From positions 372,001 to 436,000 of the forward strand of contig NW_026570234.1 in assembly GCF_019649055.1 (NCBI RefSeq): a DNA stretch of 64,000 bases, given 5' to 3'. A program made the position numbers and the translations under genes. This document shows, in pieces, positions 7,665 to 59,400 of this stretch (its first letter is position 1; every line of letters begins with the position of its first letter). Source of the DNA: Paramacrobiotus metropolitanus (taxonomy: Eukaryota; Tardigrada; Eutardigrada; Parachela; Macrobiotidae). The notes beneath the pieces were generated by a model. It saw only the letters and a list, made by a program, of their open reading frames with translations. It made no database searches and was not told the origin of the DNA.

Positions 7665-9360
7665 ATGAAAAAACCAACGTATTCGTTGATTGCAGGTGTG
7701 TGGTGCACGATGATCGTATTGTGCATCGTAAGGACATCCCATGCTTCACCAACAAACTTTCCCTTTGCCGCACTACGCCGGCAACCAAGGAATTTTATCA
7801 CTCCCTACTGGTTGAGTCCTTGTGGCGAAAGTGGAACCGTAACGGCCAGCAAACCTCTCAGTTTCCAGCCGAGTTCGTCTAAAAGCCTGAAACACCATTA
7901 TTTGGCCATTCGAAACTACGCGGAAGCCTTGGATAAATTGGTGCAGGCTTTGGAAACAAAAAAGGTAAGAATCGCCCTTATATTCAAAACATTTTGATGA
8001 CGATTACCTGTATCTGTACTGGCAAACTGATTACGAGATACGTTAAGACTTAAGTTCTGAGGCAGTTAAGATAACAGCTAATTACAACGAGCTAACATGC
8101 GTCACCAAAAAAAGGGCAAAGGTACGATTGGCCATTAATTTATCTTTAGCGCTGGAATGACCTTTTCATGGGGTATTTTCCCACATATCGGGCGCTAATT
8201 AAAAATATCATTGGTCCACTTAAATTCGATGACGCGCTAGGTGTTACCATTTGTTGGGGGAATAATGAGGGTGAACACCCATAATCTCCATAGTTAGAAC
8301 ACCAGAGAGCCATGATAGCCGGGCATTATTTGGGCGATGCTGCGACTCCCCCGTCGCAGTGCGCCGTGTTTATTATTCTCCCGAGAACCATCCAGCATGC
8401 TCAGCCAGTCCCGGTGCGGCCCAAACGGGCCGGTTGTTGCCGGCTGACATTTCCAAGCTTATTTACCAAACAAGCAATCATATCCTGGACCGGTTGCGCA
8501 CACGCGCTTCACCGTTTCAATGACTGGCAATTTTTGGCACAGGTGTAGTTTTATCTTCAGAACGAACACGCGAGAATACTGCATCCTTTTCGAAATCTGA
8601 AAATACCCTTGATGCTGTTTTTAAATCGTCCCGGTCATAACAACCACGATTAAAGAGGCGTATGATCAAACAAACAACAACGGCGCCCACATGTACAAGT
8701 ACACGCTATAAAAATAAGGTACTTAGCTTGAGCAACTGTACGCGTACCTACACCACATTGCTGGAGTTCATTGCTGTATAATTGTTATCGAAAACGCGAT
8801 GTGCGTGAGGCAAAATATATTGTCGCATAACAGTATAACACCAACAAAAAAATAAGAATACTTATCATGACTGAATGATTTTTCTCTTGTAGATGGGTGG
8901 CGATCCATATCTTCCAAACCAAATTAAGCAGTTCAAACTGGATAAATTTCCCCGGCCGCCTACATTCAGTGACAACGTCGTGAGTGCTATCGTTGGTCAA
9001 TCCCCGTCAACGCTCTTAGTGGAAGTCTACCGATTACTGCAGATTGTGGCCGTGCATTTGAGTAGCACGGAATCGGACGAAATCGCCTTTGAAGGCCGCT
9101 ACCAGGACGATCTGGATGATTTACAACGCGGTCCCAGTGGCCTACAGGCCCTTATGTGCTCGGTACGGCTGGGCATGAAGCATGCCGGGGTTGATCCGGT
9201 CGACAACAGCGACGTACTGAAGACCATTTACACAACGCCGATTCGCGATTATTCCCAGCGAAATCTCCGGGATATACTGCGCCTGGATGGAACCAGTTAT
9301 ATTCTCGAATATGTTAAGACCGTCTTCAATGAACTGTACGGGCAGTCGACGCAAAAGTAA
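7665..9360 (+). CDS. Unrecognised secreted protein, 255 aa, two exons
   Basis: Exon 1 is 7665-7964 and exon 2 is 8893-9360. The donor (AAAG|GTAAGA) and acceptor (CTTGTAG|ATG) are in phase 0 and together give 255 codons plus stop. Translation starts MKKPTYSLIAG and continues with a hydrophobic core (VWCTMIVLCIV) ending near SHA, which looks like a cleavable signal peptide. The mature part has a TPYWLSPCGES motif near its N terminus, then mainly helix-forming segments (LKHHYLAIRNYAEALDKLVQ, LLVEVYRLLQIVAVHL, RDILRLDGTSYILEYVKTVF). Only two cysteines fall in the mature part. No family was recognised. Size, signal peptide and helices would fit a small secreted helical factor, but that is speculation. 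The ATG at 7665 is the first in frame. Confidence 0.7.
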
Positions 9361-29161: not shown

Positions 29162-29513
29162 TTGCTTGAGTTCCTGTGTTATAGCTAGATTATTTATTTT
29201 TTCGCTGCCCCGAGTGATTTCTACTGTTTTATGATTCAGTATTCAATCTAAGCGCAATGCAGATCTATTTTTACTTGTGATTTATAGTGTGAAAATTGCC
29301 ATTCTCCGTCTTGGATATCATTAACGTTAATTTTGTGGGGTACGCTCTCTTGACTTACGGATTTTAAGTGTAACACCCACACGACGCGGTTCCTGTCCAG
29401 AAGGTATGAATAAACCCATAAAAAAATTCTAAAAGCTATGACGCCGATATTTTTCACATGGTGCCCAGTTTCAACAAAATGTAGTCGATAAAAATGGCGA
29501 AAGAACTAAAAAA
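29162..29513. other. Short intergenic segment before the tRNA gene
   Basis: Probable 3' untranslated region of the C48/PHD gene, with an AATAAA-type hexamer (GAATAAACC near 29407). No other gene was seen. Confidence 0.4.
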
Positions 29514-29585
29514 GCCACCAATGGGACTCGAACCCATGATCTTCTGCTTACTAGGCAGACGCTTTACCAACTAAGCCATGGCGGC
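29514..29585 (-). tRNA. tRNA-Thr (anticodon AGU)
   Basis: The reverse complement folds into a complete cloverleaf of 72 nt. The acceptor stem is GCCGCCA with TGGTGGC (one G-U pair), the D arm is GCTTAGTTGGTAAAGC, the anticodon stem is TCTGC/GCAGA around loop CTAGTAA (anticodon AGT), and the T arm is ATGGG-TTCGAGT-CCCAT. There is no intron and no encoded CCA, as expected for a eukaryote. The internal A and B box promoters (TGGCTTAGTTGG and GGTTCGAGTCC) are intact, and a run of T follows the 3' end on the minus strand (TTTTTTAG), serving as the Pol III terminator. Confidence 0.97.
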
Positions 29586-57100: not shown

Positions 57101-59400
57101 CGGAACTGGCCGGGATGAAATATACTGTTGAACAGTCAAAATACGGTTTGACGGTAAGGTCCGGGGCATGGTTGTCGGTGTCGAAGCGGGCTGATTGTGA
57201 GCGATGTCTTTGTTGGGTTTAATGGTGGCGGGCGTGCTTGCGAAGTGCCTTGCCTCGTTTGCTGTGACGTTTAATTTGTCCATCCGATTCATTTGCAGCC
57301 TTCCTTGCAGCTACTTGTACGCGGTTACGATGATAAAATTGACGTGCTGCTGAACATGCTGGTGGAGAAACTTATGCATTTTAAACCCGATCCCAAGCGA
57401 TTTGAAGTTCTTAAAGAAGTGGTAGGTGTTTGATGAATGCTTTTTTTTATTTTTTTAAGCAATATACATGTCATACCGGTAAAAGAATTTCTGTGATGTT
57501 GTTCAAGCTCAACAGGGCTGAAGTTTTTTGATGATTGTTTTTTATCCTGAGAAATTCTGCAAAGAAGATTTTGTCAAGTTGTGCTAGACACTTTTGAGCG
57601 ATATAGATTTCTGGTTGAGTAAATTAATTTTATTTTGTAGTACGGTCGCCAGTTGAAGAACTTCTTTGCCAGCGAGCCGAATCGCCAGAGCATGTGGTAT
57701 TTCAACGTCCTGATGAGTGAATTATGTTTCACAAAAGAGGAGTTAATGGGGGCTATGGATGCACTGACCTTTGATACAGTAGTGGAGTTAGGCCCGAAAT
57801 TATTTGCGGAAACTTATGTGGAAGGCTTTGTATATGGTAATGTCAGTCGGAAGAAAGCGGAACTCATGATGGATCAAGTGGAAACTGCCCTGCGCAGCAT
57901 TGCTACGAAAACGCCCGATGCGCATAATCGTTTGCGATTAGTGCAGCTGCGAGAAGGTATTCGAATTTGGATAGTGAAAAACCTGTGTGAAAAACTTACT
58001 CAATTGCGTAATTTTGTGTAGGGTCCAGTTTGGTGTATCATCGCGAGAACGATGTGCACAAAAGCTCTTGTGTGACCAATTATTATCAGACAGCATGTGA
58101 AGATTCACGGATGAATATGTTACTGGAGCTGTTCGAGCAGATCATCAATGAGCCGTGCTTTGATATTTTGCGAACGAAGGAACAATTAGGTATGGAGGCT
58201 TGCTTAGGCTTGTACTTGGTCCGCTCGCCAGTGATTTTAGTACTGTACTTCGTCGACAGATGTATGTAGTAAATAATGCTTAGGGTAATCTACACCTGTT
58301 CATCGTTATTTGTGTTGATTTTCTAAATTGGATATCGAATTCAGCAGAGGTATTTCTGCAACACTTTTCGTACGGAATCTCTATGATGTTGTTCAAGCTC
58401 AACAGGGCTGAGTGGCGCTGTGCTGACATAAACATTTCTCCTGAGAGATTCGTGAATTATTAGATACGCCGTAGCCTTCTTGTAAAACCGCTGTTTGTTT
58501 TATTGGTTGTACAGTACTTTATAGTTTATAGTTCGTAGGTACAGACTTAACACATGCAACCTTACCTTGTTAGTTTTGCAATTCACGCTTCTTAAGCAGT
58601 GAATGCATTTGTCACTTGTGCTCTAGGATACATTGTCTTCAGTTCGGTGAAAAATGTTAGCGGAGTTCTGGGTCTACAGATTTTGGTGCAATCTGACCGA
58701 AATCCATCTCACTGTGATCAACGCATCGAAAGCTTTTTGCAAGAAATGGAGGTTAGTATTAAATTTTGTCATCAATTGTCACAAAAAATCATTGTTATGA
58801 TCATGGTTCGGCATATTTAATTGTAAACTTCATGGTGTGTTACGAACAGAAATTTTTGGAAAATCTCACGGAAAACGAATTCCAAACGCACATAGAAGCT
58901 CTGGCCGTGAAGCGCCTGGAGAAGCCGAAAACAATTATGCAACAAGCTAGCAAATACTGGAATGAGATCTATGTACGTCAGTACAATTTTGATCGGGATA
59001 ATCTGGAAGTGGCCATACTGCGGACATTAACGAAAACCGATCTCTTAAATTTTGTAAAGGTATGTCGGCGTAGTTCTGTAACTTCTGTTTCTTTTATTTG
59101 CTGGGACCTTACATGTGGATGTGGAAACACGTCGTTTTCTAGGACTATTTATTGCAAAACGGTTCTCAGAGGAAGAAGCTGTCCATTCACATTACTTCCA
59201 CCGTTCCCGCCAAGAATGCACGCAAAAAGCGCAGCGCTGATGGTGATGAAGTCAAAGAAGACAAGCCGACCGTAGATCCTGCACCAGTTACTTTGACAGC
59301 AGATAAAGTGGACAGTCCCCAGACTCTGAAGTCAAAAATGGGCTTAGCGCCGCTTCCCCCTAAATATACTGATGTGGATACGGTTGTTACCGGCTACTAA
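54187..59400 (+). CDS. IDE: Insulin-degrading enzyme (M16 metalloprotease)
   Basis: Nineteen exons: 54187-54361, 54529-54632, 54694-54967, 55043-55165, 55230-55261, 55416-55586, 55647-55719, 55780-55872, 55953-56125, 56193-56296, 56391-56589, 56679-56788, 57009-57153, 57299-57421, 57641-57956, 58022-58189, 58627-58751, 58850-59059 and 59143-59400. They total 2976 nt (991 aa; human 1019). The inverted zinc motif is HFLEH (His72, Glu75, His76), with the downstream glutamate in [44 protein letters not shown] and QQYNFDRDN-type [13 protein letters not shown] match IDE throughout. It degrades short peptides such as insulin in a closed chamber. The C terminus ends VVTGY, with no peroxisomal SKL-like signal, after a lysine-rich linker. 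Two introns host snoRNAs. Confidence 0.96.
57484..57558 (+). ncRNA. Intronic box C/D snoRNA copy 1 (28S rRNA guide, snR190/SNORD12-like)
   Basis: Within IDE intron 14. The terminal stem AGAATTTCT (57484-57492) pairs with AGAAATTCT (57550-57558). Inside are box C GTGATGT (57493), box D' CTGA (57518), box C' TGATGA (57529) and box D CTGA (57547). The 15 bases before D' (TCAAGCTCAACAGGG) are perfectly complementary to the conserved 28S rRNA segment CCCUGUUGAGCUUGA. The fifth-base rule points to the G of CCCUG. The element ends 82 bases before the 3' splice site, a typical position for intron-processed C/D snoRNAs. From memory, yeast snR190 and vertebrate SNORD12 target this same segment. Confidence 0.9.
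58375..58451 (+). ncRNA. Intronic box C/D snoRNA copy 2 (same 28S guide)
   Basis: Within IDE intron 16. The stem GAATCTCT (58375-58382) pairs with AGAGATTC (58444-58451). Box C is ATGATGT (58383), D' is CTGA (58408) and D is CTGA (58441). The guide GTTCAAGCTCAACAGGG before D' is identical to copy 1. Against copy 1 both strands of the stem changed (T to C and A to G), so pairing is kept, which indicates selection on structure. The C' box is poor (TGCTGA region), and the distance to the 3' splice site is longer (175 bases), so expression could be weaker or need its own processing. Confidence 0.82.

Follow-up and report, generated by a model that had tools for sequence, protein, structure and literature searches.

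The window, the 64-kb stretch of DNA analyzed here, corresponds to positions 372001-436000 of contig C14 within an assembly of 169.8 Mb. When introns were removed at GT-AG boundaries, positions 57302-58752 of the plus strand gave a peptide that matches the human insulin-degrading enzyme (IDE) from end to end (E-value, 3.5e-58). Two introns of this gene each carry an element with the anatomy of a box C/D snoRNA. Both elements lie in the sense orientation relative to IDE, and the single intron between their two host introns, of 65 nt (57957-58021), carries no such element. A tRNA gene at 29513-29585 on the minus strand (72.3 bits) was the only above-threshold Rfam match in the window. The features at the IDE locus are as follows.

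57422..57640, plus strand: IDE intron with copy 1; 219 nt, phase 0, GT-AG; the spliced translation aligns to human IDE unbroken
57485..57557, plus strand: putative box C/D snoRNA, copy 1; 73 nt; distances to the 5' and 3' splice sites, 63 and 83 nt
57485..57491, plus strand: copy 1 terminal stem, 5' arm GAATTTC; pairs with 57551-57557, duplex -4.5 kcal/mol
57493..57499, plus strand: copy 1 box C, GTGATGT, by sequence
57503..57517, plus strand: copy 1 D' guide, TCAAGCTCAACAGGG; complementary to the 28S string CCCUGUUGAGCUUGA
57518..57521, plus strand: copy 1 box D', CTGA, by sequence
57529..57534, plus strand: copy 1 box C', TGATGA, by sequence
57547..57550, plus strand: copy 1 box D, CTGA, by sequence
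57551..57557, plus strand: copy 1 terminal stem, 3' arm GAAATTC; pairs with 57485-57491
58190..58626, plus strand: IDE intron with copy 2; 437 nt, phase 1, GT-AG; from the spliced translation against human IDE
58375..58451, plus strand: putative box C/D snoRNA, copy 2; 77 nt; distances to the 5' and 3' splice sites, 185 and 175 nt
58375..58381, plus strand: copy 2 terminal stem, 5' arm GAATCTC; pairs with 58445-58451, duplex -7.2 kcal/mol
58383..58389, plus strand: copy 2 box C, ATGATGT, by sequence
58393..58407, plus strand: copy 2 D' guide, TCAAGCTCAACAGGG; same as in copy 1
58408..58411, plus strand: copy 2 box D', CTGA, by sequence
58421..58426, plus strand: copy 2 box C', TGCTGA, with one mismatch
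58441..58444, plus strand: copy 2 box D, CTGA, by sequence
58445..58451, plus strand: copy 2 terminal stem, 3' arm GAGATTC; pairs with 58375-58381

A sequence-only reading of this DNA had described two introns with elements of about 75 bases, each with C, D' and D boxes inside a closing stem. Its coordinates and sequences are correct, and the three boxes are all present; however, both copies also have a C' box, which it did not list. The two elements share the layout stem(7)-U-R-UGAUGU-(guide)-CUGA-(C')-CUGA-stem(7). Compared with the features that define box C/D RNAs (RUGAUGA, CUGA, a stem and kink-turn spacing), each copy has six of the seven bases of box C, all four of box D, a 7-bp stem and a 3-nt bulge, and in both copies the final base of box C is U rather than A. 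The C/D kink-turn requires a U-R-U bulge followed by GA. An eighth stem pair (T/A) had also been counted, but this pair takes the first bulge base of the kink-turn and the A of box D; therefore, the stem is 7 bp long. We also calculated terminal stem scores from stem length and energy in a way that approximates the SnoBIRD calculation. The scores were -31.5 for copy 1 and -50.4 for copy 2, both of which pass the cut of -25 that SnoBIRD uses on low-confidence predictions to call a C/D snoRNA expressed.

A strict scan for this anatomy (exact matches to box C and CTGA, closed by a flush stem of 5 to 7 bp) was run on both strands of the window and on 40 first-order Markov-randomised windows as a control. 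It returned two matches in the 64-kb window, namely the two copies, and none in the 40 randomised windows. The observation is accurate and not due to chance.

We then compared the two copies with each other. An identical run of 28 bases (57494-57521 and 58384-58411) starts at the second position of box C and ends with the last base of D', so that the identity previously claimed for a 17-base guide is confirmed and is in fact longer. Beyond this run and the stems, the D'-to-D parts are similar only at the level of shuffled sequences (437 of 500 shuffles reach the observed score), and the same is true of the upstream intron flanks (446 of 500), which bears out the claim that the copies diverge strongly outside the guide. 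The downstream intron flanks are borderline (47 of 500). The possibility that we are dealing with a chance repeat, or with a 28-base duplication of coding or repeat origin that has no RNA product, is practically negligible, given that the anatomy is absent from the randomised windows, that conservation is confined to the guide-box block and the stems, and that the guide fits a known rRNA guide in the proper register.

The terminal stems differ in one pair, U-A in copy 1 and C-G in copy 2 (alignment columns 5 and 73), and the other six pairs are identical. Compensatory change in the stems had been reported earlier; the sole substituted pair is indeed compensatory, but with six of seven pairs identical the extent of the change was overstated. 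The same applies to the structural selection deduced from it, which rests on one base pair. By our own estimate, the odds that one random change per arm would hit the same pair and also be complementary are about 1/7 x 1/3, or 5%. Such a single pair is suggestive, but not strong, as a sign of selection. As far as the sequences can tell, selection is better seen in the intact guide and boxes that lie beside a saturated second half than in the stem.

This comparison also bears on whether both copies work. Copy 2 has the weaker C' box (TGCTGA), and its 3' end lies 175 nt from the 3' splice site, compared with 83 nt for copy 1; the shorter distance is nearer the spacing preferred in vertebrates. 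One copy, most likely copy 2, may accordingly be a non-expressed snoRNA pseudogene that leaves only copy 1 functional. We regard this as unlikely, given that the guide and the C, D' and D boxes have stayed intact while the remainder is saturated with changes, and that copy 2 has the more stable stem (-7.2 against -4.5 kcal/mol).

Next, we considered the rRNA target. Immediately before D', without a gap and in the position that the rule of five demands, lie 15 bases whose reverse complement is CCCUGUUGAGCUUGA; the fifth guide base before D' (C) is opposite the G of CCCUG in CCCUGUUGAGCUUGA. This string, known from eukaryotic 28S rRNA, is presumably the helix 73 (H73) target in this species as well, an assignment that rests on general conservation because the species' 28S beyond about 1.3 kb consists of N. 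The rDNA was located via 5.8S, and its readable 28S covers the first ~1.3 kb before the assembly turns to N. Searching the assembly for the target pattern yielded no rDNA copy that could be read, the target-bearing stretch of 28S being N. The earlier claim that 15 guide bases are complementary to 28S thus holds as 15 bp by sequence to CCCUGUUGAGCUUGA, a string established for eukaryotic 28S. The predicted position of 2'-O-methylation is the G of CCCUG (the G of CCCUGUUGAG).

This predicted target G coincides with the site assigned to snR190, snR107 and SNORD12. In yeast, the predicted snR190 site is G2395 in H73, beside C2392, which has been discussed for snR190 (PMC8536666). The corresponding G2483 of Schizosaccharomyces pombe is methylated by snR107, and human G3878, attributed to SNORD12, SNORD12B and SNORD12C, is reported as methylated (PMC11971394). 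Neurospora CD16 is placed at 26S-Gm2357 with snR190 and HBII-99 as homologues (PMC2780460), and chicken GGgCD57 at 28S-G3388, again with snR190/HBII-99 (PMC2653536).

We also noticed degenerate short fragments of conserved 28S from around the R2 insertion region at C114:54577-54813, C1:290429-290506 and C4:262343-262403, with 78-91% identity to the query; on C114, two of the fragments are separated by about 70 bases. They are possibly rDNA remnants joined to a retroelement.

The exact guide in a C/D context occurs at two places in the readable genome, both of them in IDE. We inspected each genome site with up to two mismatches to the guide plus D' box, and none had a C box, a D box and a terminal stem. 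A gapped pattern running from box C to the guide matched the full guide twice, each time in IDE, and otherwise picked up five looser strings, comparable to what the reversed control gave. With a covariance model built from both copies, the window and the fetched loci yielded no further convincing copy. A third exact match to the guide core, on contig C42, was rejected; it has no C/D boxes and resembles coding sequence.

Other elements came to light in the genome searches. CACGCTCAACAGGTATGA is present in five near-identical copies with similar flanks on contigs C14, C76, C92, C93 and C180; it is an interspersed repeat with no relation to the snoRNAs. A U12 minor spliceosomal RNA matched at 8120-8262, minus strand, of locus L004 on contig C42 (Rfam, 58 bits against a threshold of 53), and a genome search with the nematode SL1 model gave no match.

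Taken together, these results make it very probable that the IDE introns encode two paralogous box C/D snoRNAs of the snR190/snR107/SNORD12 guide type, which would be released from these introns and would guide methylation of H73. Expression, methylation and host-coupled processing are what we infer for both copies. The IDE pre-mRNA would be spliced and the intron debranched, and exonucleases would then trim the intron back to the terminal stem, which would be shielded by the C/D snoRNP (15.5K/Snu13, Nop56, Nop58 and fibrillarin). In domain V of 28S rRNA, a 15-bp duplex would form between the D' guide and the helix 73 string CCCUGUUGAGCUUGA. The G of CCCUG, which faces the fifth base of the guide counted back from D', would then receive its 2'-O-methyl group from fibrillarin. 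The pair itself probably originated by duplication between introns of IDE, after which the guide, the C and D' boxes and the terminal stem were retained while the D'-to-D half drifted freely.

However, a matching guide is no proof of methylation, because yeast snR190, with the same D' guide, leaves G2395 unmethylated and works as a chaperone (PMC8536666). By the same token, both elements might be genuine snoRNPs whose binding to helix 73 serves early pre-60S particles, as a folding chaperone or a placeholder, and does not guide methylation. We consider this quite improbable, in part because the site is reported as methylated in S. pombe and human (PMC11971394). In addition, snR190 as a chaperone also uses a second antisense element, box B, whose 15 nt are directed against domain I of 25S. 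In our analysis, neither copy paired better than shuffled sequences with the rRNA that could be read (5.8S and ~1290 nt of 28S), a limited test given that this readable part may or may not include the exact domain I site. Moreover, the two copies show no conservation in the region before box D. The chaperone role is weakened because the second antisense element of snR190/snR107 was not found in this limited test. Membership of the guide type is another matter: the second antisense element is small in human SNORD12 too, and therefore it does not define the type.

Returning to the paralogue interpretation, we examined whether IDE is a surprising host, as had been suggested. The literature does not support this suggestion. 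C/D families mostly have their copies within introns of one host, which is the rule in human (PMC8178906); the main need of a snoRNA host is broad expression and not a role in translation (PMC3511168); and hosts other than ribosomal protein genes are common in the chicken table, where they include HSPA8, RABGGTB and UBAP2 (PMC2653536). Among open-licence full texts, we found no paper on IDE as a snoRNA host. It could be imagined that an otherwise ribosome-linked guide moved into IDE in this lineage and was kept twice, so that modification of H73, a helix of the peptidyl-transferase centre, became coupled to both the expression and the splicing of this metabolic protease gene, with copies that differ in efficiency or tissue use, but we hold this to be very unlikely.

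Finally, we compared the pair with described families. With the Rfam snoRNA models, neither copy reached a gathering score, the best result being 23.7 bits against 51 (SNORD91). The plant family snoZ107_R87 (RF00360) gave 19.9 and 16.5 bits for the two copies against a gathering threshold of 50, although its consensus contains the 14-base guide string UUCAAGCUCAACAG of the IDE pair in full (14/14 guide bases). A covariance search with the SNORD12 model (RF00581; gathering threshold, 43 bits), which the sequence-only reading had proposed as a check, listed neither copy up to E = 10, and searches of the genome with SNORD12 and snoZ107_R87 gave only sub-threshold matches like those of bacterial and archaeal controls. 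A SNORD102 match at 57424-57478 was judged to be due to chance; it overlaps the T-rich start of the intron. Because no Rfam family reaches its threshold, membership is assigned by guide and architecture, and on these grounds the assignment of the pair as further members of the snR190/snR107/SNORD12 guide type is well supported. The guide, its register and the architecture are known; what is new is an unlisted pair of members and a host for which we found no report. In this sense, the pair would extend an ancient guide family, with members from yeast to human, by two animal RNAs that the Rfam models overlook.

Among the known systems, SNORD12, SNORD12B and SNORD12C (HBII-99 and its relatives) share with the IDE pair the D' guide site on 28S, the C/D architecture and the presence of multiple copies per host, whereas the remaining sequence of the pair is too diverged for the Rfam model to list. 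The three human copies lie in introns of the lncRNA ZFAS1 (PMC11971394) and the four copies of chicken GGgCD57 in introns 1-4 of one transcript (PMC2653536), whereas here two copies lie in the protein-coding IDE. Like the pair, Saccharomyces cerevisiae snR190 has its guide upstream of D' against helix 73; however, it is transcribed with U14 rather than from an intron, does not methylate, and has a second antisense element against domain I, none being detected in the pair with the readable rRNA. S. pombe snR107, in the mamRNA intron, resembles the pair in being intron-hosted and in addressing the same 25S site (G2483, methylated), but its second antisense element (ASE2) is functional, and it also plays roles in meiosis. 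The role of this guide family thus varies by lineage, from a methylation guide in S. pombe and human to a chaperone only in S. cerevisiae. Given that the IDE pair appears to retain the D' guide alone, this species would offer a natural test of whether the D' guide is sufficient for methylation.
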